Below, one piece after another: positions 5,943 through 34,285 of a stretch of DNA of 64,000 nucleotides. This DNA comes from Methylicorpusculum oleiharenae. Its GTDB lineage: Bacteria > Pseudomonadota > Gammaproteobacteria > Methylococcales > Methylomonadaceae. How positions within the stretch are numbered: position 1 is the first letter of the stretch; each line of letters starts with the position of its first letter. Made by a program: the position numbers and the translations under genes. Where the stretch lies: the NCBI RefSeq assembly GCF_009828925.2, contig NZ_WUTY02000001.1, forward strand, positions 4,742,492 to 4,806,491. Direction: 5' to 3'. The notes beneath the pieces are model-generated. The model was given only the letters and a program-made list of their open reading frames with translations. It did not search any database and was not told the origin of the DNA.

Positions 5943-8900
5943 TTACTTTACCAGGACTTTTCTCCGAAACAGTTTTTCAAGTTCCAAAATACCAAACATG
6001 CCAACACCGATGGCGATAATCTCCATGCCATGCACTAAATCCACCGGGCGGCTGTCAAAAAATGCCTCCATAAACGGCGCATAGGTAAACACCAGTTGCA
6101 GGATGATGACCGCAGTGACGCCAATCAGTACCGCCGGTGAATTGAACAGGCGTTTGAAACTTAAGGATGAAACACGCTGATAGCGCACGCTGAACAGGTA
6201 AAAAACCTCCATCGTCACCAGCGTATTGACGGCATAGGTGCGCGCTTCCTCCAGCGTAGAACCCTGATACAGGCTCAATTTGAAAATACCAAATATACCG
6301 GCTGCAAACAATGCGGTTACCAATAGTATGCGCCAAACCAGAAACCCTGAAAGAATAGGCTCGTTCGCAGGTCGCGGTGGATGTGTCATGCTGTCCGGTT
6401 CGCCGGGTTCGAATGCGAGCGTCATGGCCAGAGCTATCGAACTCACCATATTGACCCAAAGGATCTGTAAGGGCGTGATCGGCAAAGTATAGCCCAACAA
6501 GATGGCAACGATGATACTGATGGATTCACCGCCGTTGACCGGTAGCAGAAACGCCACGGCCTTTTTCAGGTTCTCATAAACTGCGCGGCCTTCCTTTACG
6601 GCATGGACGATGGTGGCGAAGTTGTCATCGGTAATCACCATCACTGAAGCTTCCTTGGCGGCTTCGGTGCCTTTATGACCCATGGCGATGCCGATGTCGG
6701 CGCGTCTTAGCGCAGGCGCATCATTCACGCCATCGCCGGTCATCGCCACACAAACGCCGTCCGTTTGCAGCAGTCTGACCAGACGCAGTTTATGTTCCGG
6801 GCTGACCCGTGCGTAGACATCCGTCTCCTGAACCCGGCCACGTAATTCATCATCATTCATCAGCTCCATTTCGTGACCGGTGATGACTTCCGACGAATTG
6901 ACCAGATTCAACTGGGCGGCGATGCTGCAAGCTGTAAGCGCATGATCGCCGGTGATCATCTTGACCCGAATACCGGCGCTTTGGCATTCCTTGATCGCCG
7001 CGATAGCCTCGGTGCGTGGGGGATCAATCAGGCCAAACAGCCCGAGCAACACCAGACCATCATTCAAGTCTTCGAAATTCAGCTCCTGGTTATGACTGGG
7101 CGCGGGTTTACAGGCCACTGCCAAAACCCGTTGCCCTTGCCGAGCCAGCAATTCGATCTGCTTTTGCCAGTAATGGCGGTTGATTGCCTGGTCGCCAGCT
7201 GCGGCGCGCTGCTGCACGCACATCTCCAGGAGACGTTCCGGCGCACCCTTAACAAAAATAAGCGCCTCACCCGTATGGCTGTGGTGCATCGTTGCCATGA
7301 ACCTGTGCTCGGAATCGAAAGGAATCAGGTCGGTACGGGGGTAATTTCTGCCTTCCTCGTCCGCATTCAGTCCAGCCTTCATGGCGGCAATCAGCAATGC
7401 CGCCTCCATCGGATCGCCGTGAATGCGCCATCCTTCCTCCCCTTGCTCAAGCGCTGCATCATTACAGAACAGGCCTGCCCGCAATACCTGTTGTGGTATG
7501 GAGGTCGACTCGACCGCTACCCCCAAGCCATCGTGCAGAAAATCGCCATGCGGATCGTAGCCCGTGCCCGTAACCTCAAGCACTTGGTCGGCCGTCACCA
7601 GCGACCGTACCGTCATCTCGTTGCGCGTCAGGGTGCCGGTTTTGTCAGTGCAAATCACGCTGACCGAGCCCAGTGTTTCCACCGCCGGCAAGCGCCTAAT
7701 AATCGCCTTGCGGGTCGCTAGACGCTGCACGCCGATTGCCAGCGTCACCGAAAGAATAGCCGGTAATCCTTCAGGGATGGCTGCGACAGCCATCCCCACG
7801 ACAATCATGAACATGTCCATCGCACTGAAATCACGCACCCATACACCAAACATAAACATGAATATCGACAGCAGCAACACCGCCGCGGTAACCCAGCGGG
7901 CAAAGACCGCCATTTGCCGCAACAACGGTGTCGTCAATGTGTGTACTTGCGACACCAGCGTGCTGATATGTCCGATTTCGGTTTGAGCACCGGTCGCCAC
8001 CACAAGTCCTGATGCCTGACCTGTGGTGACCAGCGTTCCGGAATAGGCCATGCCAAGCCGATCGCTCAATACGGCATCGCAGGCAACCGCTTCGGCGCTT
8101 TTTTCAACCGGCACTGATTCACCGGTCAGCACTGCCTCTTGAATTTGCAGGTTTTTGACTTTTAGCAGCCTCATATCCGCAGGCACTTTATCGCCCGGTT
8201 GCAGCAGCACGATATCGCCGGGCACCAGTTCTTCGGCGGGTACGGTTATACGCCGTCCATCACGCTGCACCATGGCATGTGCTGACAGCATCTGCCGTAT
8301 TGCCCACAGTGCATTTTCGGCTTTGCCTTCCTGAATAAAGCCGAACACGGCATTCAGCATGACCACCGCCAAAATTACACCGGTATCCGTCCAGTGTCCC
8401 AGTATCGCAGTAATGCTTGCGGTGCCGATTAACACATAGAGCAGTAGATTATGAAATTGCACGATGAAACGCATAAACGCCGATCGTGGCTTGCTTTCAG
8501 GCAAGCGGTTCGAACCGTACAAAGCGCGTCGACGCACGATCTCGTCATCCGTCAGGCCTTGGTTTTCATCGGCGTCAAGGGTGCTGAGCACGGCTTCTGT
8601 GGATAATGCATGCCAGTTTTGGTCAGGTATTTGGGGGCTGGTTGTTTCAGTAGGCACATGGGCGCTATCGTCCAGTCCGGGTGCTTCTTTGTCCTGTCCT
8701 TGCTGTTTCAGCCATGCCTGCCAAACAGACAGCAATACAGCCAGAATCACGGGGCCCAAAAAGAGGCCTATCCCGCCGAAGGTCGTGAGTCCACCCAAAA
8801 CACCGAACATCACTACAAGAAAGGGCACTTGGCTAGCGCCACTGATAACTATTGGACGAATTACATTATCTACCGTGCTAACTACCAGAAAGCCCCAAAG

Positions 8901-9746
8901 CAATAGCCCTACCCCCTGCCAAAACTGATCCATAAGCACCAACATGATGCCAATGGGCATCCACACCAATGTGGCACCCATAGGAACCAGCGCCAATAGC
9001 GCGGTAATTGCTCCAAACAGCACGGGTGCCTTGACACCTGCTACAAAGTAACCAATCCCGGCTATTACCCCCTGTGCCAGTGCCGCAAGCACCAGGCCGT
9101 AAACGACGGCACGCGTTGTGTTGCCGGCAGCTTGTAGATATACATCCTGATATTTTCCTAGAAATCGAACCAGTCCTTGATGCAACTGCCTGGTTATTTC
9201 TTTACCATCGCGAAAACAGAAGAACACCGTAACCAGGATAACACCCAGTTTTAAAACGTTTTGCCCAATACCACCAAGGAATCGGGCAAATCCGCCCATC
9301 CCCTGTTTTACCCAGTCTGCAAGTTGTGTCGCCAGCTCTGCCCGGTCACTGGTCAACCGGGCGATCCATTCCTGTGCAGTAGAGCCCAGCCAGGGAATGC
9401 GCCGAATAAAGTCGGGGAGTTGATATGCTTCTTGAGTTAAGTTATCCGCTAAGGTTTGATAAGCGATTTTGATTTCTTCTTGTAGCATGGCAGCAAGCCA
9501 AAAGGCTGACAAAGAGATCACCGTCGCAATAAGGGTCGTCATCACTGCTGCACTGAGGGTGGCTTTGTCTTTGAGTAAATGCCTCAACCACTGGTAAGGT
9601 GGCCACATGACATAGGTTATGATCAATGCCCATGCCAGTGTTAGCAAGAATTCACGCAACACCATAAAGCCCAGCAATAAAAGAGCGGATAATAAAATGC
9701 CGGGAATCAAGGATCGTATCGGGTTTCTACTTAAAAAATCATTCAT
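5943..9746 (-). CDS. AI-2E/PerM-type permease fused to a P2A-type cation ATPase
   Basis: One 1267-residue frame without a break joins two membrane families. Residues 1 to about 350 form a PerM/AI-2E family permease (about eight helices, with the family's GLFLGPVILAVLLSVW end). After a ~30-residue hydrophilic linker comes a complete P-type ATPase: N-terminal cation-ATPase domain, actuator TGES near residue 540, IPEGLPA in helix M4 near 657, the phosphorylated aspartate in DKTGTLT near 701, the ATP-binding KGAPE loop, the GDGVNDAPALRRADIGIAM hinge near 1001, and a C-terminal helical bundle. The PEGL motif places it with Ca2+/Mn2+-type (P2A) pumps. Fusion of these two families is unusual. A sequencing or assembly join looks unlikely because the linker is coding throughout. 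Confidence 0.88.
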   Translation of the reverse strand: MNDFLSRNPIRSLIPGILLSALLLLGFMVLREFLLTLAWALIITYVMWPPYQWLRHLLKDKATLSAAVMTTLIATVISLSAFWLAAMLQEEIKIAYQTLADNLTQEAYQLPDFIRRIPWLGSTAQEWIARLTSDRAELATQLADWVKQGMGGFARFLGGIGQNVLKLGVILVTVFFCFRDGKEITRQLHQGLVRFLGKYQDVYLQAAGNTTRAVVYGLVLAALAQGVIAGIGYFVAGVKAPVLFGAITALLALVPMGATLVWMPIGIMLVLMDQFWQGVGLLLWGFLVVSTVDNVIRPIVISGASQVPFLVVMFGVLGGLTTFGGIGLFLGPVILAVLLSVWQAWLKQQGQDKEAPGLDDSAHVPTETTSPQIPDQNWHALSTEAVLSTLDADENQGLTDDEIVRRRALYGSNRLPESKPRSAFMRFIVQFHNLLLYVLIGTASITAILGHWTDTGVILAVVMLNAVFGFIQEGKAENALWAIRQMLSAHAMVQRDGRRITVPAEELVPGDIVLLQPGDKVPADMRLLKVKNLQIQEAVLTGESVPVEKSAEAVACDAVLSDRLGMAYSGTLVTTGQASGLVVATGAQTEIGHISTLVSQVHTLTTPLLRQMAVFARWVTAAVLLLSIFMFMFGVWVRDFSAMDMFMIVVGMAVAAIPEGLPAILSVTLAIGVQRLATRKAIIRRLPAVETLGSVSVICTDKTGTLTRNEMTVRSLVTADQVLEVTGTGYDPHGDFLHDGLGVAVESTSIPQQVLRAGLFCNDAALEQGEEGWRIHGDPMEAALLIAAMKAGLNADEEGRNYPRTDLIPFDSEHRFMATMHHSHTGEALIFVKGAPERLLEMCVQQRAAAGDQAINRHYWQKQIELLARQGQRVLAVACKPAPSHNQELNFEDLNDGLVLLGLFGLIDPPRTEAIAAIKECQSAGIRVKMITGDHALTACSIAAQLNLVNSSEVITGHEMELMNDDELRGRVQETDVYARVSPEHKLRLVRLLQTDGVCVAMTGDGVNDAPALRRADIGIAMGHKGTEAAKEASVMVITDDNFATIVHAVKEGRAVYENLKKAVAFLLPVNGGESISIIVAILLGYTLPITPLQILWVNMVSSIALAMTLAFEPGEPDSMTHPPRPANEPILSGFLVWRILLVTALFAAGIFGIFKLSLYQGSTLEEARTYAVNTLVTMEVFYLFSVRYQRVSSLSFKRLFNSPAVLIGVTAVIILQLVFTYAPFMEAFFDSRPVDLVHGMEIIAIGVGMFGILELEKLFRRKVLVK

Positions 9747-16672: not shown

Positions 16673-17689
16673 TTATAGTGCTTGAAGAAACTGCAACAGT
16701 GCATCATCATCCGGTTGGTAACGGTAGCTTGGCTCCCCTGGCGACTGAAGTCTGGCCAAGGCCTTGTTCTTCATCGCCAAGTCGGCCTCTACATACCGAT
16801 GGGTAGTGGTGGTGCTTTCATGTCCCAGCCATAAGGCAATCACGTTAAACGCCACGCCAGACTGTAGCAGATGCATAGCTGTCGTGTGACGGATGGTGTG
16901 AGGCGATATCTTTCGCTTGGACAGACTACTCATCGTCTGGGCGGCAAGCTCGACTGCAATATTGAGTCGCTGGGTAACATTGCAACGAGTCATCGGCTGA
17001 CCATCTCGATTCGGCAGTAACGCGGCATCAGCATCTAATGCTGGATTACGTTTCAACCAAGCTCTGATTTCCTGGACCGTGCTTTTCCATAAAGGTGTCG
17101 AGCGTTGCTTGCGTCCCTTACCACGCAAGTGGACACAAGCCGATTCGCCCATGACGACATCGCCGACTTTGATACCAATGATTTCGGAAACCCGAGCGCC
17201 GGTGTTGTAAAGTAAGGTCAGTAATAGATGGTCGCGCTGGGATGTCCAGGTTTCACCGGGTTGGCCCAATATGGCTAACATCTCCTCGCGGCTCAGAAAA
17301 CCCAGCATGGGTCGTTCGAACCGTTTCATGGGGATACCCAGCGCCTGTTCAATTACGAAAAATGACGATACGTCGCGTCGGGCGGCGAATTTCAAAAATG
17401 CGCGTAAGGCTGTCAGCCTCAAGTTCCGGCTACGCACGGTGTTGTGGCGTTGCAGTTCCAAGTGGTCCAGGAAGGCCAGGATCAAATCCGGGGTAATATC
17501 GGCCAATTTCACTGCCGTTGGCATTTTCCCCAGGCGATGCTGGGTGAAATCCAGGAATAGCAGCATGGCATCCCGATACGAGGCAATCGTGCGCGGACTC
17601 ATGGCGCGTTGATTGACCAGATATTCGGTAAAAAACTGCTGGACCAAAGCCGAGAAGGAGACTGGATGGGGTGCTGTGGCTTCAGTCAT
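16673..17689 (-). CDS. RIT tyrosine recombinase, third gene
   Basis: The preferred start is the ATG at 17689 (MTEATAPH), overlapping the middle gene by eight bases, giving 338 residues. It has the SAM-like N-terminal domain (about 10-100) and the catalytic domain. Active-site residues are recognisable: Arg in NTGARVSEI, Lys in LRGKGRKQR, HTIRHTTA (His-x-x-Arg), His in LGHES and the nucleophile Tyr in THRYVEAD. It is part of the RIT trio, and each member is thought to be needed for movement of the element. Confidence 0.88.
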   Translation of the reverse strand: MTEATAPHPVSFSALVQQFFTEYLVNQRAMSPRTIASYRDAMLLFLDFTQHRLGKMPTAVKLADITPDLILAFLDHLELQRHNTVRSRNLRLTALRAFLKFAARRDVSSFFVIEQALGIPMKRFERPMLGFLSREEMLAILGQPGETWTSQRDHLLLTLLYNTGARVSEIIGIKVGDVVMGESACVHLRGKGRKQRSTPLWKSTVQEIRAWLKRNPALDADAALLPNRDGQPMTRCNVTQRLNIAVELAAQTMSSLSKRKISPHTIRHTTAMHLLQSGVAFNVIALWLGHESTTTTHRYVEADLAMKNKALARLQSPGEPSYRYQPDDDALLQFLQAL

Positions 17690-18659
17690 GACACACCTCC
17701 GGTAACTGCGCAAAGGCTTCAAACCGATTGGCTGCCACGGCCATCAGCTCGGGAATACCCGTCATATACCAGTAAGTATTGGTGACCATGGCATGCCCGA
17801 CATAAGTGGATAAAGCCAGCATCTGTCGGTCGACATCCATGCCTTGTGCCTGCCATAGCAGTATGCGGCGAACAACAAACGTATGGCGCAAGTCGTGAAT
17901 GCGCGGACCATGATGGGCACCGCGATTGATCCAGCCCAATTGCTCACGTAATTGGATAAACACCCGATGAACCTGCCGAGAATCCAGTTTATGCCCGAGG
18001 AGTCGTCCCCGCGTACTGATAAAAAATGGCGTATCGTCCGTGACAGGGATATGGATGTCGCGTTGCGACCGATACTGTTTAAGCGCCTCTACCGTACTGG
18101 GATGAAGCGGTACATAGCGCGATTTGGCAAACTTGGTTTGCCGTATGGCAAGCATGCCAGTCTTTAAGTCGACATCAGAATCCAGTAAATGCAAGGCTTC
18201 GGAAATTCGCAGCCCCGTCGACGCGAGTAACCCGAACAATGTCTCGTAGGTAGCACCCCGCAAGCCTTGAATAAAGGAATCCAGGTTATGCGCGGCGGCC
18301 AGCAAATCGATGATCTCCTGCTCAGTATAAATATGCGGAGCCAAGCGCTGGCCGACTCGGCCAAAGATGCTGTCATCAGGTACCTCGGTGCGCGGTTCAA
18401 ATTGTTGTAGGTAGCGGCAAAAGGAACGCAGATTCTTCAGTCGCCTGGCCCATGTGGCAGGATCATCGCTATGACCCTGGTCTTGCCGTGCCCAGTCTGC
18501 CATCAGCTCGACGGTTAGTGGTTCTTGGGTGTTCAAAGCATCAATATAATGAGCAAAACTGATGATTGAGTAGCCAGGCGAGCGCAAGCCAAAACCTAGT
18601 CGACGCCGTTCACGCAAGTAATTTTCGGCATGGGTTGTCATCGTAATAGGTATATTCAT
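17682..18659 (-). CDS. RIT tyrosine recombinase, middle gene
   Basis: The ATG at 18659 lies six bases after GGGAG and overlaps the stop of the preceding gene as ATGA, so translation should be coupled. It encodes 325 residues. Catalytic residues are Arg in STGLRISEAL, Lys in QTKFAKSRYVPLHP, HDLRHTFVVRR, His in YVGHAMV and Tyr in NTYWYMTG. The region between box I and box II is longer than in XerC/D, as seen in RIT B-type recombinases. Confidence 0.87.
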   Translation of the reverse strand: MNIPITMTTHAENYLRERRRLGFGLRSPGYSIISFAHYIDALNTQEPLTVELMADWARQDQGHSDDPATWARRLKNLRSFCRYLQQFEPRTEVPDDSIFGRVGQRLAPHIYTEQEIIDLLAAAHNLDSFIQGLRGATYETLFGLLASTGLRISEALHLLDSDVDLKTGMLAIRQTKFAKSRYVPLHPSTVEALKQYRSQRDIHIPVTDDTPFFISTRGRLLGHKLDSRQVHRVFIQLREQLGWINRGAHHGPRIHDLRHTFVVRRILLWQAQGMDVDRQMLALSTYVGHAMVTNTYWYMTGIPELMAVAANRFEAFAQLPEVCHD

Positions 18660-19897
18660 GATGCACTCCCAGGCCAAGGCAAGGCGACCGTTGCCAGGTT
18701 CTGGCTGTCGAGTTTGGCATAAACCAGTGTGGTATTGAGCGAGCGATGCCGCAAGACATCCGCCACTTCTTTGAGGGAGCTACCACTCTCCAGGAGTCTG
18801 CTGGCCATGGTATGCCTCAGCAAATGAGACCGCGTGTAGGGCAAGCCCGCTCGCGCATAAGCCTGGCGGATCGACTTCCGGATCAAATCAGGGCCGATAG
18901 GCTGATCGCGTGGCGCTATGTTACGAACGAACACCGCACGGTTACTGGTGGGTGGTCGTTCATACGTCAGGTAATCGGCAATCGCTTGACCGGTGGCCGC
19001 TGGTAAGGGCATGACATCTTCACGCCGTCCCTTGGTGCCATGTAGAGTAATCGTCGCCGCCGACCAATCGATGTCATCCAGGCTAAGATAAGCGACCTCG
19101 CTACTGCGCAGGCCCAGATCCAATGCGCAATGCACGATGGCCGCCGTTCGAAGCGCCGCCAGGCTATCCTGCGTAAGTGCGCTTAGCAAGCATTCTACTT
19201 CGTGCTTGGTCAGCGTTTTCGGTAGCGAGGCTTGTTGCCAGTTGGCCGGAAAACTGGTGACGCCGATCAGATGATGAACTGCATCGCCCAGGGTGGCGCG
19301 ATAGCGAAAATAGCCGCGTAATGCCGAAACCGATGCACCGATACTGGCCGCCACGGAACATCGCGTGCTTTGGCTGGCTATGAACTGCTGAATCTGGTTC
19401 GGTTTGATCTCGGCAATCACCACTTCTCGATCGGCAAACTGCGCCAATAGCAGACAGCGAACGATACCAAGATACTGCTTACGTGTTGTGGCAGCGAGTC
19501 CGCGCACATGGCTCATGTGACCATCGAATCGTCGAAGTTCCTCGTCTACGGGCGTTTGGCCTATCGATGGATCGCCGATGATGGCATTGGCACGCAGGAT
19601 TTTCAGCAAATGTCCCAGCGCCGCATGTAAATCTTTGGCATAAGAAAATGCCGGCTGCTCGCAGCAACAGCTTGGCAGGTGGTCATTTAGAAAATGTTGG
19701 ATTAGCTTTTCATCGATGGTTTTGACATCAATATGGCTTTCGGTGATCCACTGAGCAAAATGCGTCAGTCCGGCAAGGTAATTATCAATGGTGTGGGATG
19801 CATAGCGGCAATCAAACAGGTGCAGCATAAATGCATCAACGAAGGGTGCCAATTGGCTGTCAAACAGCCAATTGCTTGTATGGTGATCAGATTTCAT
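18656..19897 (-). CDS. RIT tyrosine recombinase, first gene
   Basis: The ATG at 19897 (MKSDHHTS) follows AGGAG at five bases and is a better start than the upstream one at 19927. It gives 413 residues with an N-terminal SAM-like domain, a second core-binding region and the catalytic domain. Active-site residues are Arg in GLRSSEVAYL, Lys in GTKGRREDVMPLP, SHLLRHTMAS, His in LRHRSLNTT and Tyr in LVYAKLD. It is transcribed first in the trio, starting about 120 bases inside the right terminal repeat. Confidence 0.88.
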   Translation of the reverse strand: MKSDHHTSNWLFDSQLAPFVDAFMLHLFDCRYASHTIDNYLAGLTHFAQWITESHIDVKTIDEKLIQHFLNDHLPSCCCEQPAFSYAKDLHAALGHLLKILRANAIIGDPSIGQTPVDEELRRFDGHMSHVRGLAATTRKQYLGIVRCLLLAQFADREVVIAEIKPNQIQQFIASQSTRCSVAASIGASVSALRGYFRYRATLGDAVHHLIGVTSFPANWQQASLPKTLTKHEVECLLSALTQDSLAALRTAAIVHCALDLGLRSSEVAYLSLDDIDWSAATITLHGTKGRREDVMPLPAATGQAIADYLTYERPPTSNRAVFVRNIAPRDQPIGPDLIRKSIRQAYARAGLPYTRSHLLRHTMASRLLESGSSLKEVADVLRHRSLNTTLVYAKLDSQNLATVALPWPGSAS

Positions 19898-20019
19898 TCG
19901 AATCTCCTGAGGTGGGTGAGATTCCACTACAGGAGACAGGTAAAACTATGTCAAGCTAATGGCAGAGATAGCGTTCAATATCGCTGACATCGTGCCTTGC
20001 AGACTATAGCCATTTGGAG

Positions 20020-27091: not shown

Positions 27092-27508
27092 TTAACCCAG
27101 GTCTTTGAGGTATTTTTTCAAGCGCCTGATTTCATTCAAGCGCAGTGAATGGGCCAGATTCAACGCCAGAGCCCAGTGATCGAACTGCCGGTAGCACTGC
27201 TGAAGTTCCGGAGCCTGACGCAGCAACACGGCCTGACCTGCCGGGCTGTTGAGTAAGCAATAAGCTTGCTGGCCGCGAACGCCTCGCCGACGCCAACGGA
27301 TATACACCGTCAACGAACGTACCTGTTGAACGTTCAGATACAGCTCCCGAGGTTCGGCCAGCACCTGCCGGAACGCCCCGGCACAGTCGTTCATCAACCT
27401 GACCACCTGGGTCATTTCTGATTCAAGTACCGCAATTCTGCGCCAGACCCCCTGCCGGGAGCTGAACGGTAACACGACATGAAGACGTTTTTCGAAATCA
27501 CTGGCCAT
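27092..27508 (-). CDS. DUF3158-like ICE protein
   Basis: Starting at the ATG at 27508 it gives 138 residues. The pattern LNVQQVRSLTVYIRWRRRG followed by a helical ALNLAHSLRLNEIRRLKKYL tail resembles DUF3158. That gene lies directly after the PFL_4669-type gene in PFGI-1-like elements, exactly as here. Similarity is modest and the context carries much of the call. A block of 39-bp repeats occupies most of the 311 bases between this gene and the upstream one. Confidence 0.5.
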   Translation of the reverse strand: MASDFEKRLHVVLPFSSRQGVWRRIAVLESEMTQVVRLMNDCAGAFRQVLAEPRELYLNVQQVRSLTVYIRWRRRGVRGQQAYCLLNSPAGQAVLLRQAPELQQCYRQFDHWALALNLAHSLRLNEIRRLKKYLKDLG

Positions 27509-27665
27509 AGCGAAAGTCAACGAAAAGGAATAAAAAGGGCTAGCTCATCAAAAGGCTTCCCCTTACCCTTAAAGGGTTAAAACCTTTTGTAAGTGCTGTT
27601 AGCTACCCCGCACCGGATTCAGCCGGGCTGGATCAATGGTCAAAATGGCTAAACGCGACCAGGGG

Positions 27666-27799
27666 GTGTGCAGCCTGCACAGTTGATTGCTCCTGCTCAG
27701 AGCGGTGTGCAGCCCGCACAGCTGATTGCTCTTGCCCTGAGAAGTGTGCAGCCTGCACAGCTGATTGCTCTTGTCCGAAGGGGTGTGCAGCCCGCACAG
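27666..27799 (-). repeat. 39-bp palindromic repeat array, block 1 (3 units)
   Basis: Three 39-bp units plus a terminal half unit, each opening with GTGTGCAGCCTGCACAG or a one-base variant. The core TGTGCAG-C-CTGCACA is a palindrome. The array follows the 3' end of the PFL_4669-type gene. Its outer flank (CAGGGGCAAACCCGC) resembles the flank of block 2 (CAGGAGCAAATCCCTC). Minus-strand reading gives the 13-residue repeat VQAAH-SGQEQSA, with more deviations than in the other blocks. Confidence 0.9.
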
Positions 27800-27819: not shown

Positions 27820-28650
27820 TCAGTCTGAAGACAGCTCATTGCTGATGGCCGTTGCGACAGGTTCTCCACGTTGCGTTTCATCCGGATTTTCCCTGCCGCT
27901 AAGGCCGCTGGTGTTGCTGACTACCACGGCAGAAGGCTTGGGCTTGGCTTTAATGACCGGCGCGATCTTGGCCCGCTGGGTTTTGGCGACAATGGCCCCC
28001 GGACATTCGCCCAACAGCCCTTGTGCTCGCAGCGCATTAGGATTTTGAGCCAGCACATCGTCGCGGATGACACCGGTGAATTTCCATTGACTGGCCAAAT
28101 TGAAGGTGCGACGGATAGCTTTACCGGTCACCTGCAACAGCTGTTCGGCCACTGCGCGATCAATCAGGGCGATGTGCCGGGCAGTAAAGACACTGCGCGC
28201 CAAAGCATCATAATCGGCAATCAAATAGGCACCCATGTAACCAAACGGGTTCTGAAAATAGATCGGCACCTGCAAGGGCTGCAGTGATTGGGCCACCTGA
28301 ATGTCAAAGCCTTCGATTTCGTCCAGGCGGGTCGTCAACCAAGTGGTCTTGGCCTGGATCAGCGCTTGACTGTCAGCCAGCGACTGCTCGATTTTGACTA
28401 AAAACCAGTCGGCAAAAGGATCATCGGCTTCGGCGGATAACCAAATCAACTTCATGCGCCGACCAAAATCCAGCAAACCGATAATCGCTTCGACATGCTC
28501 GCTGCTTTTGCGGCCAACCACTAGCTTTTGGGCTTGCCGGGTTTGTATCGTCATCCGCGTCTCACTGCGCAGATCGCCCGGCTGTTCGATGAAGGTCCGC
28601 TCCGGTTGAATCCTTGCGGGTTGAGGCTCAGGGTCAAAGAAAGCATTCAT
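27820..28650 (-). CDS. ICE protein of the PFL_4669/TIGR03761 family
   Basis: The 276-residue protein shows the family's conserved run: TRQAQKLVVGRKSSEHVEAI, LLDFGRRMKLIWLSAEADDP.ADWFLVKIE, NPFGYMGAYLIADYDALARSVFTARHIALIDR and VTGKAIRRTFNLASQWKFTGV. It is a standard member of the replication module of PFGI-1-type ICEs; its biochemical role is unknown. The ATG overlaps the stop of the upstream repeat-rich frame as ATGA, implying coupled translation. The C-terminus is immediately followed by repeat block 1. Confidence 0.87.
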   Translation of the reverse strand: MNAFFDPEPQPARIQPERTFIEQPGDLRSETRMTIQTRQAQKLVVGRKSSEHVEAIIGLLDFGRRMKLIWLSAEADDPFADWFLVKIEQSLADSQALIQAKTTWLTTRLDEIEGFDIQVAQSLQPLQVPIYFQNPFGYMGAYLIADYDALARSVFTARHIALIDRAVAEQLLQVTGKAIRRTFNLASQWKFTGVIRDDVLAQNPNALRAQGLLGECPGAIVAKTQRAKIAPVIKAKPKPSAVVVSNTSGLSGRENPDETQRGEPVATAISNELSSD

Positions 28651-29564
28651 GCGTTAATCCTCTTGAGTTGAATTTCAGGGTGTGCAGCCCGCACAGTTTG
28701 TAATTCTTGGCCGGAGCGGTGTGCTGCCCGCACAGCTGATGGCTCTTGACCTGAGAAGTGTGCAGCCTGCACAGTTGATGGCTCTTGTCCGGAGCGGTGT
28801 GCAGCCTGCACAGTTGATTGCTCCTGCCCCGAGGGGTGTGCAGCCTGCACAGCAGATTGCTCTTGACCTGAGAAGTGTGCAGCCTGCACAGCTGATTGCT
28901 CCTGCCCCGAGAGGTGTGCAGCCTGCACAGCAGATTGCTCTTGACCCGAGCAGTGTGCAGCCTGCACAGCTGATTGCTCCTGCCCCGAGAGGTGTGCAGC
29001 CTGCACAGCAGATTGCTCTTGACCCGAGCAGTGTGCAGCCTGCACAGCTGATGGCTCCTGCCCCGAGAGGTGTGCAGCCTGCACAGCAGATTGCTCTTGA
29101 CCCGAGAAGTGTGCAGCCTGCACAGCAGATTGCTCTTGTCCGGAGCGGTGTGCAGCCCGCACAGTTGGTAATTCTTGGCCGGAGCGGTGTGCAGCCTGCA
29201 CAGCTGATGGCTCCTGCCCCGAGGGGTGTGCGGCCTGCACAGCTGATGGCTCCTGCCCTGAGAAGTGTGCAGCCTGCACAGCAGATTGCTCTTGACCCGA
29301 GAAGTGTGCAGCCTGCACAGCAGATTGCTCTTGTCCGGAGCGTTGTGCAGCCTGCACAGCTGATGGCTCTTGTCCGGAGCGGTGTGCAGCCCGCACAGTT
29401 GGTAATTCTTGGCCGGAGCGGTGTGCAGCCAGCACAGTTGATTGCCATTGCCCCGAGCAGTGTGCAGCTCGCACAGGAGCAAATCCCTCAATTGTCCAGC
29501 GTTGAATTTGGGCACCATGCTGGTCGATGGCAGTCAGAACCCGATACAGTGGTATTTTCGTCAT
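28647..29564 (-). CDS. repeat protein with ~20 tandem 13-residue repeats
   Basis: The ATG at 29564 lies six bases after AGGAG and opens MTKIPLYRVLTAIDQHGAQ..., then about 20 copies of VQAAH-x-SGQE-Q/P-S-A/T, ending PEIQLKRINA. The stop overlaps the next gene as ATGA. Evidence that this frame is the translated one comes from codon variation between units: Ser appears as TCG, TCC or TCA, Gly as all four codons and Gln as CAA or CAG, while SGQ itself is nearly invariant. The other open frames do not show this. I know no family with this repeat. The first ~27 residues may be the remains of an ordinary gene taken over by the repeats. Confidence 0.6.
   Translation of the reverse strand: MTKIPLYRVLTAIDQHGAQIQRWTIEGFAPVRAAHCSGQWQSTVLAAHRSGQELPTVRAAHRSGQEPSAVQAAQRSGQEQSAVQAAHFSGQEQSAVQAAHFSGQEPSAVQAAHPSGQEPSAVQAAHRSGQELPTVRAAHRSGQEQSAVQAAHFSGQEQSAVQAAHLSGQEPSAVQAAHCSGQEQSAVQAAHLSGQEQSAVQAAHCSGQEQSAVQAAHLSGQEQSAVQAAHFSGQEQSAVQAAHPSGQEQSTVQAAHRSGQEPSTVQAAHFSGQEPSAVRAAHRSGQELQTVRAAHPEIQLKRINA
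28680..29476 (-). repeat. 39-bp palindromic repeat array, block 2 (20 units)
   Basis: Twenty 39-bp units plus a final palindrome, in perfect register. Each unit is a 17-base near-constant part (GTGTGCAGCCTGCACAG) and a 22-base part with a few recurring variants (for example CTGATGGCTCCTGCCCCGAG or CAGATTGCTCTTGACCCGAG). Recurrent unit types in alternating order show expansion by unequal exchange. Because 39 is divisible by three and units lack stops in several frames, long spurious frames appear on both strands. Confidence 0.97.
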
Positions 29565-29585
29565 TGTTCTCTCCTGCGTTTCAGG

Positions 29586-29992
29586 CTGTGCAGCCTACAC
29601 AGCTGATTGCTCTTGGCCCGAGCAGTGTGCAGCCAGCACAGTTGATTGTTCTTGCCCTGAGCAGTGTGCAGCCTGCACAGTTGATGGCTCCTGCCCTGAG
29701 CAGTGTGCAGCCTGCACAGCTGATGGCTCTTGCCCCGAGCGGTGTGCAGCCCGCACAGTTGATGGCTCTTGACCCGAGCGGTGTGCAGCCTGCACAGCTG
29801 ATGGCTCTTGGCCCGAGCGGTGTGCAGCCTGCACAGCTGATGGCTCTTGGCCCGAGCGGTGTGCAGCCTGCACAGCAGATTGCTCTTGCCCCGAGAAGTG
29901 TGCAGCCCGCACAGTTGATTGCTCTTGGCCGGAGCGGTGTGCAGCCTGCACAGTTGATTACTCCTGCTTAGAGGGGTGTGCAGCCCGCACAG
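29586..29992 (-). repeat. 39-bp palindromic repeat array, block 3 (10 units)
   Basis: Ten 39-bp units plus a final palindrome lie between the stop of the replication gene (30000) and the ribosome-binding site of the repeat protein. Read in the same frame as the replication gene, it encodes the VQAAH-SGQEQSA repeat but is interrupted by TAA in unit 10 and TAG in unit 1. The left flank (TTTCAGGCTGTGCAGCC) matches that of block 2 (TTTCAGGGTGTGCAGCC). Confidence 0.95.
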
Positions 29993-29999
29993 GGGACGA

Positions 30000-31358
30000 T
30001 TAGTTGTCTGAATGCGCATTGTTCAGTGCCTCCCGCAGTTGTTGGGTGGGTTTCGTTGATTTCTGTGGCTTGTCGTGGCGCTTATTCGGGTTTTCAGCCG
30101 GAGCGTTGCGCCCACTCAGGGCGGCCAGTTCTTGCTGATGGTTGCGCACCTGCTGTTCTGTGCGTTGCTGGCGTTCACGGTTGTCCCGGTAGCGAATACT
30201 CAAACTCGTCAACACCGGGTGGCCTTTGGCGTGTTCTTGACATAACCAGCTGAGATACGCCAACGGATTTCGAATCGGTCGATGGCTCGTGCGTTTAGCG
30301 TCTATTTGCGCGGCGGTTTCATCGAGAAAGGCTTGGTGTAGCTCGGGGTCGATCGGGTTCAGGTAGCGCTGGGCGAGTGCTTGCTCGCTGGCATTGAAGC
30401 TGGGCGGATAGCTGAGCGGTGCGCGGGCCGCATCGGTTAAATTTTTTTCCCTGTTAGCTGAAACAGGCGTAGTAGTAGTTATTTTAAATTTATTTAAAAA
30501 ACTACTACTACAACTACTACTTGTAGTAGTTGTTATATAGGTGCTGCGGTTCAATTTTTGAACTTCATCGCTAAGTGATTGTTTTTCTTTTGGTTTTTCT
30601 TTTGGTTCTTGTTTTGGATTAGCCAGGTTCAATTTTTGAACCTGGTCGGTTTCAGCCAGGTTCATTTTTTGAACCTGGTTGATTTTAGCCAAGTTCACTT
30701 TTTGAACTCGGTCATCAGCCAGGTTAACTATTTGAACCCGGTGGGGTCCGTTAAAAAAATGAACCTGGCGTTGGCCGTTCACTTGCTGAAAGAAGTCACT
30801 CACCGCCGCACAGGGGGGTGGTTCTTCCCGGCGGTCGATCGCTTGCCAGATCTGCCGGGCCAGGGTTCGGATTTGGGCTTGGTGATGCCGGCGTTGGTGG
30901 TTGACGAATTCGAGGTACTCGGGGTCCAGGTAGAGGGCATCGGCCAGGGCGAGGCGGTGATCATGAACGGCATAGACATGGCCTTTGAATTGGCCGGTTG
31001 GCGTGCGGAGCGCGGAACACAGGGACAGCCAGCGGGTTAAGCGCAGCACATACAACACTTTTGAAACGGTGGGCTTGGCGATCCCTAAGTGGCTGTGTAA
31101 TAACCGGTGCAAAGACAGCAGCACGGCGGAACCGGTCAGGGTCTGGGTGCGCATCAGTCCCCAACAGCGGACATCGATGGCTTCCAGATCCGGATCGCTC
31201 CAAATGGCTCGAGGAATGGCATCTTGCCAGTGGCCGATATACAGCAGGGCTTCGCGCTGGGCAACTGGACCGGTAGTCTCGGGCCCCAGGGCCTGGGCAA
31301 TCCGCTCGCCGAGCTGCACGATCGCGGCGGAGATGGGCGTTGCGGTTGGCGGGGTCAT
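30000..31358 (-). CDS. STY4528-type ICE replication protein
   Basis: The ATG at 31358 (MTPPTATPISAAIVQLGERI) gives 452 residues. The N-terminal two-thirds carry the family's features (EALLYIGHWQDAIPRAIWSDPDLEAIDVRCWGLMRTQ, a winged-helix-like LLHSHLGIAKPTVSKVLYVLRLTRWLSLCSALR, GHVYAVHDHRLALADAL). Residues ~205-275 hold imperfect repeats of VQK-NLA with a spacing of about 11 residues; at DNA level these are palindromes (see the origin candidate). The C-terminal part is helical and charged. It is proposed as the initiator of element replication in SPI-7-type islands. Repeat block 3 starts right after its stop, in the same frame. Confidence 0.8.
   Translation of the reverse strand: MTPPTATPISAAIVQLGERIAQALGPETTGPVAQREALLYIGHWQDAIPRAIWSDPDLEAIDVRCWGLMRTQTLTGSAVLLSLHRLLHSHLGIAKPTVSKVLYVLRLTRWLSLCSALRTPTGQFKGHVYAVHDHRLALADALYLDPEYLEFVNHQRRHHQAQIRTLARQIWQAIDRREEPPPCAAVSDFFQQVNGQRQVHFFNGPHRVQIVNLADDRVQKVNLAKINQVQKMNLAETDQVQKLNLANPKQEPKEKPKEKQSLSDEVQKLNRSTYITTTTSSSCSSSFLNKFKITTTTPVSANREKNLTDAARAPLSYPPSFNASEQALAQRYLNPIDPELHQAFLDETAAQIDAKRTSHRPIRNPLAYLSWLCQEHAKGHPVLTSLSIRYRDNRERQQRTEQQVRNHQQELAALSGRNAPAENPNKRHDKPQKSTKPTQQLREALNNAHSDN
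30465..30790. other. candidate replication origin inside the replication gene
   Basis: Five imperfect to perfect palindromes of the type GGTTCAAtttTTGAACC lie at 30548-30563, 30623-30645, 30656-30678, 30689-30711 and 30719-30741, with a half site near 30748-30768. Spacing is 33, 33, 30 and about 28 bases, near three helical turns. Next to them, 30468-30540 is AT-rich with GTAGTAGTT / AACTACTAC inverted repeats. Iterons beside an AT-rich stretch inside an initiator gene are typical of phage and plasmid origins. Confidence 0.55.
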
Positions 31359-31396: not shown

Positions 31397-31954
31397 CTAG
31401 GCGTGGCCATCGAGGTTGCCGGCAAACCAGTCCTGAATCAGCGGCCAGATGGCGCTGATTTTGATGCCGGTGTGGTGATGGACATAGAGCAGGCGTTCGG
31501 CGATGCCGAGCGGTTCGGAGTCGGTGGCTTTCCAAAGCTCCCAGATGTTGACTTGCTGGGCATCGGTGGGCAGGGCCGGACGGCCGTCGGCTTTGGGAAG
31601 ATTCAGGTATTTGCGGTATTGGGCGGTGTCGGCGCTGGTGAAGCCGAACAAGGTGCGCATGACCGGTAAGGAGGCCCCTGCAGTCAACAGTTGCAGGATC
31701 AATTGCCGCTGCCGGATCCGCTGCGCACAGACCTGCATGGCGGTATCGAGGGCGTCGGCATCAAACAGGATGCGCAGATAGCGGGCTTTGGTGGTTGCGG
31801 CCATCTCATGGATTTCCTGGGTGCTGAGGGTCATGATTTTTTCGATTTGATCGGTGCGCAGACCCAGTTGGTGGGGCGTGTCAAAGTCCCCTTCGGCGGC
31901 CATGCGCGATACAAACATCAAGGTGTGCAAGGCAAATTCGGCGTGATAGTTCAT
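31397..31954 (-). CDS. DUF2857 ICE protein
   Basis: The ATG at 31954 gives 185 residues; a longer upstream frame would overlap parB and lacks a better site. The sequence (FALHTLMFVSRMAAEGDF.TPHQLGLRTDQIEKIMTLSTQEIHEMA, then RQLILQLLTAGASLPVMRTLFGFTSADTAQYRKYL) matches DUF2857, with a possible helix-turn-helix near residues 100-125. It is a constant neighbour of parB in SPI-7-type elements. Function is unknown; DNA binding is likely. Confidence 0.82.
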   Translation of the reverse strand: MNYHAEFALHTLMFVSRMAAEGDFDTPHQLGLRTDQIEKIMTLSTQEIHEMAATTKARYLRILFDADALDTAMQVCAQRIRQRQLILQLLTAGASLPVMRTLFGFTSADTAQYRKYLNLPKADGRPALPTDAQQVNIWELWKATDSEPLGIAERLLYVHHHTGIKISAIWPLIQDWFAGNLDGHA

Positions 31955-31967
31955 GGTGACCTCGCTG

Positions 31968-33455
31968 TTAAGGTGGGCCTGAGGGCCATAACTGGGTAGA
32001 GGGGTAGTGCTGACGAATGTGCCGGCAGGTTTCGATGAGTTGGCAGATATCCGTGAACACCGGATCGGGAACAATCGCTTTATTTTGCAGAACTTCGTGG
32101 GGATAATGGGAGACACTGGGTGCCGGTCCGACTAACTGCTGAAGTGCCGTGCCCTCGGGGTCTTGCTGGAGCTGGTACAAGTCCGTGTGTTGCCACAAGG
32201 GGTCGCGTTCGGGACTGACGCTTTGTTCGGCGATGCCCAGCAATAACCACCACAGCCCCCAGGTGGCGTGAGCGGTGAAAGCGGCTTGCGGTTTTTCGAT
32301 GATAAAACCCAGGCCTTGGGAGACCGGTACCACGACCTGTTCCAGGTGAATCGAACGGGCAATGCGGTGGGCGAGCCCGTAGGTTCGCTCATACAGGGCG
32401 TGAATATCGGCTGGGGTGTCGGGTTCTGCCGGATAACGGGGCGTGACGGTGTCGACATCGGTACTGGCGGGGCACGGATCGGTTGGGCTGGCGTGCGCCG
32501 AGCTCTGGTCCAGTGTCGTTGAGGCTTGATGGTCAGTCGCTGTCGGTTGGCCGGGATCATCCGGCCAGTCCTCGTCATCGGGGGCGTTGAACAGTGACGC
32601 GTCGATAGTCTGACGCAGCCGTGTGACGGGGATGTCGAGCAGCGGTGCCAGTTGCTTGTCCAGTTCCCGGCGCACGACCTCAAGGTCCCAGGGTTCGTCA
32701 TCACAACTGGCCAGGGTATGGGCAAACAAGGCGGCAAATTGCGGGGTTTTATCCTGGCAGAGCCGTTGGTAGGCTTTTTCGGTGGCTTTGATCTGATCGA
32801 TGCCCGTGGCGCCTAAGCCGTTCCGGAGGGTATGGGGGATCAGCTGGTCCAGTGTCATGGCATAATCAAAACGGATCAATTGCCGCCGGGATAGGCTGTA
32901 ACCCATGGCTTTAAGGCGTTGACAGAAGGCCGTGCGGGTCAACTTCATCTCGTGTTCTGTTTCCAGTTGCTGGTGCAACTCTCTGAGCGCATAGGCTTTG
33001 TCAATCAGGGTCATCTCGCCACGCAGCTCGTTTTCGATGAGGTGGGCGGTGAGAAGCGAGGTTTCCGATTGCCAGGGTCGATACAGGCACTGGACGCTGT
33101 TGAAAGCGGCATCGCCGGTCTCGGCGAAGAGTTCCTTGAGGATGGCCAGCCGGGTATTGCCGCCGGCCTGAACCATGAACAGGGTTTCCCCGGGACGGCG
33201 CGTCACGGTGAAGGGGTTGTTCAAGCCGCGCTGTTCGTGAACCGAAGCTTTGATTGCGTCGTAGGCAGGATTTCTTTCCCGTCTGGGGTTATGGTCATAG
33301 GCTTTGATTTGGGCTAAGGTCAGCACCAGTTGCACCGGCGTGACGGGTTCTGAGGGCGCGAGGCGGCCTGGGTCTTCGGTAGCCGTGTTAAACGGCCCTT
33401 CTAACAATAAGGCTTTGAGATCGTCCGGATCAGGCCGTTTGAAGCGGGTGGTCAT
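31968..33455 (-). CDS. ParB-family partition protein of the ICE
   Basis: The 495-residue protein corresponds to the large ParB of PFGI-1-class elements (TIGR03764). The N-terminal ParB/Sulfiredoxin-type domain contains LTLAQIKAYDHNPRRERNPAYDAIKASV and the motif FMVQAGGNTRLAILKEL (nucleotide-binding). It is followed by a helix-turn-helix region (HLIENELRGEMTLIDKAYALRELHQQLE, KAMGYSLSRRQLIRFDYAMTL). The remaining C-terminal half is less conserved, with an acidic, Thr-rich linker near 300-345. ParB marks the centromere-like site and works with ParA. Its ATG overlaps parA as ATGA. Confidence 0.88.
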   Translation of the reverse strand: MTTRFKRPDPDDLKALLLEGPFNTATEDPGRLAPSEPVTPVQLVLTLAQIKAYDHNPRRERNPAYDAIKASVHEQRGLNNPFTVTRRPGETLFMVQAGGNTRLAILKELFAETGDAAFNSVQCLYRPWQSETSLLTAHLIENELRGEMTLIDKAYALRELHQQLETEHEMKLTRTAFCQRLKAMGYSLSRRQLIRFDYAMTLDQLIPHTLRNGLGATGIDQIKATEKAYQRLCQDKTPQFAALFAHTLASCDDEPWDLEVVRRELDKQLAPLLDIPVTRLRQTIDASLFNAPDDEDWPDDPGQPTATDHQASTTLDQSSAHASPTDPCPASTDVDTVTPRYPAEPDTPADIHALYERTYGLAHRIARSIHLEQVVVPVSQGLGFIIEKPQAAFTAHATWGLWWLLLGIAEQSVSPERDPLWQHTDLYQLQQDPEGTALQQLVGPAPSVSHYPHEVLQNKAIVPDPVFTDICQLIETCRHIRQHYPSTQLWPSGPP

Positions 33456-34285
33456 GGCCGGGCCTCGTGCGCCAGTGCCGAGGCCGCCAGGTTCGGTAAA
33501 TGGGGAATCAGTTCCTGGGCCAGCGCCTGCATGGTCTCTAAGGCGCTGGGGGCCTGGCCTTTGCGGCTGCGGTCAAAGCGGTGCACCGGCATTTTATGCG
33601 TGGCGGCTTCCCGGTACGCGACGGCATTGGGAATGACGGTGTTCAAAATGGTGATGGCGCCCTTGCTCGGTAAAAAGGCTTCTTTGCGTAATTCATCGGC
33701 TATGCGGCGGGCATCAACGGTCCGGTCCTGGCGGTAAATGACGCCGCGTAACGGTCCGATCGGGGCACCTAAGCGGGCCATGGGTTCCAGGCGTTGAATC
33801 ATGGCGACGGTACCGCGCACGAATTCGCGGGCCGATAAAATTTCCGGGGGAATGGGTGACACCATGAAATCGGCAGCGGCGACAGCGGCATCTTGCAAGG
33901 GCCCGACTGCGCCTTGGGTATCCAGCAGGACAAAGTCGTATTGCGCCGCCACCTGCGTCAAACTGTATTTGAGCCGGACCCGGCCATCGACCGTATCGCG
34001 GATCCAATCACGCAGTTTTCCCTGGGGGTCATCGGAAAGTACAATATCGAGGTTGTCGATGCGGGTTTGACTGATGACCTGAGCCGCCGAGGCACTGATC
34101 ATCAGCTGGGTCAGTCCGTGTTGAGCCCTGACTTTCAGCGGGTAGTAGCTGGATAAAGTCGGTTGAGGATCGGCGTCGATCAGCAGCACACGGTAGCCGA
34201 AATCGGCTAAAATTCCGCCTATATTGGCCGTTAGCGTGGTTTTACCGACGCCCCCTTTAGTACTGACAATGGTGATTTTAATCAT
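33452..34285 (-). CDS. parA: ParA-family partition ATPase of the ICE
   Basis: The 277-residue protein starts with the deviant Walker A box STKGGVGKTTLTANI (residues 8-22), has the switch DADPQPTLSSYYPL and Walker B-like YDFVLLDTQGAVG, and ends in a helical region. ParA uses ATP-driven dimerisation on DNA to segregate or stabilise plasmids and ICEs. It is the first gene of the minus-strand operon and overlaps parB by four bases. Confidence 0.92.
   Translation of the reverse strand: MIKITIVSTKGGVGKTTLTANIGGILADFGYRVLLIDADPQPTLSSYYPLKVRAQHGLTQLMISASAAQVISQTRIDNLDIVLSDDPQGKLRDWIRDTVDGRVRLKYSLTQVAAQYDFVLLDTQGAVGPLQDAAVAAADFMVSPIPPEILSAREFVRGTVAMIQRLEPMARLGAPIGPLRGVIYRQDRTVDARRIADELRKEAFLPSKGAITILNTVIPNAVAYREAATHKMPVHRFDRSRKGQAPSALETMQALAQELIPHLPNLAASALAHEARP

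Follow-up and report, generated by a model that had tools for sequence, protein, structure and literature searches.

We propose that the palindrome arrays of an integrative conjugative element (ICE) in Methylicorpusculum oleiharenae serve as clustered binding sites for the ParB that the element itself encodes, a BisD-like protein of the TIGR03764 family, and would form the G+C-rich half of its oriV and partition region, a reading to which we assign a probability of about 0.7. A preliminary description of this DNA knew of no described family like the array. However, an array of the same kind is already in the literature, where it is described as the putative oriV of the PFGI-1 element, and pKLC102 also has one; the new point here is the probable binder, ParB. 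In the literature examined, the "oriV iterons" of these widespread ICEs have no assigned binding protein, and the covariation reported below provides a concrete, testable assignment of these sites to the TIGR03764 ParB (BisD-like) clamp. This assignment would bring the origin, the partition function, and the activation of transfer together in a single region.

Layout and conservation of the arrays

The replication and partition genes of the ICE are interspersed with 36 palindromes of the form TGTGC-n5-GCACA, of which 35 are exact and one has a mismatch. Most of them follow each other at 39 bp; they are arranged in three blocks of 4, 21, and 11 with 39-bp spacing within blocks (Table 1). The preliminary description counted 20 units in exact 39-base register in block 2, which agrees with the 21 palindromes and 20 exact 39-bp spacings found there. 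Within the window, that is, the whole 64-kb stretch of DNA analysed, 40 matches with at most one mismatch were found versus 2.6 expected from shuffling, and in a search of the whole genome (5.85 Mb) every one of the 35 exact sites fell at the array locus. The near-invariance reported for the palindrome was borne out: the half-sites TGTGC/GCACA vary in 1 of 330 cells, compared with 125 of 792 in the spacer (Fisher P ~4e-19). The conserved unit of the arrays is the palindrome, and the spacers are free. Among the elements compared, the Methylicorpusculum oleiharenae element carries the largest natural site array.

No known RNA family matched at the repeats, and a role as RNA hairpins is disfavoured only in that identical sites are dispersed and their loops variable. 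A plasmid DNA similarity search returned no match, and none of the viral contigs searched carries the repeat. Arrays 2 and 3 are separated by about 110 bp (29479-29586) that have their own SD and ATG (MTKIPLYRVLTAIDQHGAQIQRWTIE) and are missing in the sister element L020; this block is perhaps a small-gene remnant or the edge of a captured block.

Table 1. Positions of the palindrome arrays and neighbouring features in the window
Feature	Position	Strand	Basis or remark
Small ORF in the position of the pKLC102 DUF3158 gene	27092..27520	-	No Pfam match
Array 1: 4 palindromes TGTGC-n5-GCACA	27667..27798		39-bp spacing; past acaB
acaB / PFL_4669 family gene (TIGR03761, PF08900)	27820..28650	-	Profiles; model matches AcaB crystal structure 6n8a
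ORF through array 2, VQAAHxSGQEQSA frame, SD and ATG	28647..29564	-	No sign of conservation as a gene
Array 2: 21 palindromes	28681..29475		20 exact 39-bp spacings; array 3 on one side, acaB on the other
ORF through array 3, different frame (LCRLHTARAKSHQ), ATG overlaps STY4528 stop	29561..30019	-	
Array 3: 11 palindromes, a single mismatch in the first	29587..29991		39-bp spacing; adjoins STY4528 gene end
STY4528-family pathogenicity-island replication protein (NF040582)	30000..31358	-	Profile match; ATG picked by inspection
Second palindrome class: 33-bp repeats AGGTTCA...TGAACCT within the STY4528 gene	30621..30742		
DUF2857 (PF11198) gene, BisC-like ParB partner	31397..31954	-	Pfam
ParB-family protein, TIGR03764 (ICE_PFGI_1_parB), BisD-like; proposed palindrome binder	31968..33455	-	Profile match, model
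ParB helix-turn-helix, about residues 174-203, SRTAFCQRLKAMGYSLSRRQLIRF	32847..32936	-	Covaries with palindromes
ParA-family ATPase	33452..34285	-	Profile family

Gene neighbourhood and host element

On the minus strand the order is parA, parB, the DUF2857 gene, the STY4528-family gene, array 3, array 2, acaB/PFL_4669, array 1, and a small ORF, beyond which lie STY4534-family, RadC-like, and tyrosine-recombinase genes. Three successive, overlapping tyrosine recombinase genes occupy 16673-19927 (minus strand). Both parB and acaB are present in one copy in the genome, and, judged by acaB, the closest relatives with a name are the methanotrophs Methylomicrobium and Methylomonas. A conjugation ATPase gene (TIGR03744) lies on the same strand, about 80 kb from the module. 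The host of the arrays is an ICE of the PFGI-1/pKLC102 type in a methanotroph. Housekeeping-type genes, including a his gene (1778-2098) and a P-type ATPase (5943-9746), separate the module from the type IV secretion system (T4SS) gene, and a rearrangement of the element is therefore possible. The ATPase ORF at 5943-9746 is an unusual single ORF of 1267 aa that fuses an AI-2E-transporter domain with a complete P-type cation ATPase.

A PDB sequence search found no relative of AcaB, ParB, or STY4528, and comparison of folds rather than sequences found structural relatives for AcaB and ParB only. ParB combines a TIGR03764 match with a predicted ParB-CTPase fold and helix-turn-helix; its model (mean pLDDT 84) resembles the structures of Noc, CDP-bound ParB, and KorB.

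The 33-bp repeats within the STY4528 gene encode an 11-residue repeat, VQKxNLAxxxQ, and correspond to the A+T-rich part of the oriV in PFGI-1. Palindromes containing GTTC also lie inside the STY4528 genes of several other ICEs, an arrangement that resembles an origin within its own initiator gene.

Palindromes in related elements

Related elements carry palindromes of their own at this locus. Four Methylomonas/Methylomicrobium elements (L021-L024, of which L021 ends at a contig end) have 2 to 6 TGTGC-n5-GCACA sites in the gap between STY4528 and acaB, and the Methylocaldum element L025 has TGTGCCA-n-TGGCACA on both sides of acaB and again 3 kb on. Elsewhere the palindrome is TGATAACC-n-GGTTATCA (L032/L033), GTGATGGCA (L077), TGGCCACA (L078/L079), or, in the Pseudomonas elements L044/L046, TTGATGCCT. 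Some elements have a single palindrome before and a single one after acaB, and L104 has five sites at 50-bp spacing past acaB. In pKLC102 a 57-bp unit recurs about 16 times, in most cases with GTGGTGCCACTGGCACCAC, and L103 carries an independent (convergent) 39-bp array of another palindrome, GTGATTCCCGGGGAATCAC. No strict palindrome was found in some of the ParB-bearing elements.

Three further observations concern individual elements. In Methylomicrobium sp. wino1 (L024, 9593-10001), the acaB start region and its flanking palindromes are partly duplicated (two copies of ATGATGAATGCTTTCTTTGAAAC), possibly a first step of array growth. In pKLC102 (L076, 3770-4635), the unit palindromes vary symmetrically (arms GTGTTTCC, GTGTTGCC, GTGATTCC, and GTGATGCGG), and therefore changes on the two arms are kept in step. 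Finally, a different TGTGC...GCACA pair flanks a GGTATTGC-GCAATACC palindrome in L121 (G004:C20:162-212) and L116 (G143:C88:4584-4634); this set is nearly identical in genomes of two different families and has no link to acaB there.

Covariation of the palindromes with candidate binding proteins

We compared palindrome half-site distances with protein distances in 21 elements by a Mantel test with 5000 permutations. The palindrome correlates with the ParB helix-turn-helix at r=0.604 (P<=0.0002, the floor of 5000 permutations), where P is optimistic because the elements share ancestry, and where the representative half-site was picked by eye in elements with several palindromes. The rest of ParB gives r=0.213, and among 450 windows along ParB the top one falls on the region of the recognition helix. 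The correlation ranges from 0.57 to 0.65 in a jackknife and is 0.56 without the GTGC class. The element set was enlarged stepwise after the pattern was first seen, and r did not weaken as it grew (0.57 with 15 elements, 0.54 with 17, and 0.60 with 21). Palindrome specificity thus tracks the cognate ParB helix-turn-helix, as is characteristic of parS/bisS sites.

The neighbouring transcription regulator AcaB/PFL_4669 could instead bind the palindromes as operators for its autoregulation. The sites flank acaB in many elements, even in L082, where acaB is inverted, and structure comparison confirmed the AcaB fold. However, AcaB divergence is not tracked by the palindrome (r=0.065, P=0.25; r=0.07 for the N-terminal strand-helix), and even when a 1-bp register shift is allowed the correlation reaches 0.23 (P=0.009), far below the 0.60 of the ParB helix-turn-helix. 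We therefore regard AcaB operators as very improbable.

The published reading of the homologous region is that of replication iterons: the palindromes would be sites for the STY4528-family protein, and the array a classical oriV as proposed for PFGI-1/pKLC102. The winged-helix region of STY4528 does correlate with the palindrome, at r=0.525 across 18 elements, but the ParB helix-turn-helix explains more after partialling, with 0.505 for ParB given STY4528 and 0.322 for STY4528 given ParB. Moreover, palindromes persist in L032/L033 and L091, in which the interval from parB to acaB yielded no gene other than DUF2857, STY4528 being missing from it; likewise, L029 has palindromes and no STY4528 match in the sequence examined. 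The GTTC-rich second class inside the STY4528 gene is more conserved and a better candidate for the STY4528 site. Taken together, these findings make iterons for STY4528 an unlikely explanation, and they favour, but do not prove, ParB over STY4528 as the binder.

A rough recognition code can be suggested from these comparisons, in which SRRQLIR goes with GTGC, SQxxIS with TGAT, and GRTxxxW with GGCCACA. Candidate sites predicted for this element are TGTGCAGGCTGCACA for ParB and AGGTTCAAAAATTGAACCT for STY4528.

Coding capacity of the repeats

The preliminary description had proposed a dual constraint, namely that the ORF through array 2 encodes a selected 13-residue repeat protein and that its gene is at the same time an array of binding sites. 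The protein-binding half of this proposal is well supported, because different ICEs carry, at corresponding positions, dispersed palindromes that are specific to each element and that covary with the helix-turn-helix of ParB. The selected repeat protein is not supported, and homologous arrays show what the preliminary description had named as refuting it. The translation signals reported for the ORF (AGGAG, ATG, and ATGA coupling to the following gene) are all present, spacer columns 26, 29, and 32 vary at third codon positions (with nominal P of 0.05 and 0.013 for the frame), and an ATGA-coupled ORF also runs through the 57-bp array of pKLC102. However, the open frame carries no weight as evidence, because all three minus frames through block 2 (28634-29518, 28647-29564, and 28675-29448) and one plus frame (28682-29971) are open; since the 39-bp unit is stop-free in every minus frame, a long ORF arises automatically. 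Variation had also been described as mainly synonymous in the VQAAH frame, but a six-frame test reduced this to a marginal excess: 8 of 20 distinct spacer variants in block 2 are synonymous versus 4.8 expected (P=0.048, for the best of six frames and uncorrected); for block 3 the same frame gives 8 of 16 (P=0.013, uncorrected for six frames).

Relatives keep the palindromes while the frame is broken or absent. The ATG-started ORF of block 3 reads another frame (LCRLHT) than VQAAH, as does the ORF across the single nine-site array of the sister L020 (acaB 97% identical), where the VQAAH frame lacks an ATG and comes directly after the STY4528 stop. In the Methylomonas element L022, the VQAAH frame hits a stop in the region and two palindromes 39 bp apart are retained. 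Several more distant elements have no ORF spanning the sites, and other arrays have periods of 50 or 46 bp, which are not multiples of 3. The frame conservation across homologous arrays that would mark a conserved repeat-protein gene was not found, and the repeat ORFs had no match in Pfam or NCBIfam. A selected repeat protein under dual constraint is accordingly hard to credit. The protein read across the arrays is probably a by-product, and the long ORF may be translated incidentally.

An ORF bridging the sites is present in L022, L024, and pKLC102 and absent in L086, L088, and L030; we rejected it as a general feature on account of these absences. It is also conceivable, if quite doubtful, that the array is deliberately translated: a coupled ORF would be kept open through ParB-site arrays, and ribosomes would cross the operon without polarity or clear bound ParB. 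In both this element and pKLC102, the array period is divisible by 3 and the ORF starts at an overlapping ATG. If translation were purposeful, constraint would act at the DNA level and the translation level together.

Proposed function and growth of the arrays

We infer that the arrays are loading or partition sites for ParB, because the pair of ParB and DUF2857 proteins matches BisD-BisC of ICEclc. A ParB dimer would load onto each palindrome in a CTP-dependent manner and then spread. With many sites side by side, ParB could become concentrated locally, which would serve to partition the excised circle or to control its copy number. This concentration, together with the DUF2857 (BisC-like) partner, might co-activate or repress the par-rep-acaB operon. 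We conclude that the site arrays were amplified in this lineage; an ancestor with few sites would have given rise, by tandem duplication, to the 9+4 sites of the sister L020 and the 11+21+4 of the Methylicorpusculum element.

Comparison with known systems

The oriV of pKLC102/PFGI-1-type ICEs is termed putative or postulated in the literature examined. That of PFGI-1 lies at the same locus, between STY4528/PFL_4668 and PFL_4669 and just upstream of the latter. It has four 46-bp repeats with one palindrome apiece, and its A+T-rich half holds palindromes of another class. Here, arrays 2 and 3 likewise lie between the STY4528 gene and PFL_4669 (acaB), with array 1 past acaB, and palindrome-bearing direct repeats are again accompanied by another palindrome class in an A+T-rich half. 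The pKLC102/PFGI-1 origins and the present region share the gene neighbourhood, one palindrome per tandem repeat in the G+C-rich half, and palindromes of a second kind within or close to the STY4528 gene. They differ in palindrome sequence, in period (57 and 46 bp versus 39 bp here), and in copy number (16 and 4 versus 36 here, in three blocks of which one is past acaB).

In ICEclc, BisD (the former ParB) acts with BisC, a DUF2857 protein, and the element studied here, also an ICE, has the same succession of a ParB-type gene and a DUF2857 (FlhC-like) gene, its ParB matching BisD by location and by domain. BisD is described as a sliding CTP clamp that sets out from bisS boxes and acts as a coactivator at ICE promoters. 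Our palindromes, which covary with the ParB helix-turn-helix, may be sites of the bisS kind.

The sopC centromere of plasmid F is a tandem array of about 12 repeats of 43 bp, and SopB binds an inverted repeat in each of them. The arrays resemble it in having repeats of roughly 40 bp in tandem, a single short palindrome in every repeat, and a parAB pair nearby. In contrast to sopC, they belong with another ParB subfamily and are split into three blocks among replication genes. The IncC parS sites and the RK2 KorB operators likewise consist of several palindromes on a mobile element, sites for ParB or KorB that in part lie in or beside operons, and the ParB model resembles KorB. The IncC parS sites, however, are scattered and even-centred (TTTCACATGTGAAA), whereas the palindromes described here are in tandem and have an odd centre.
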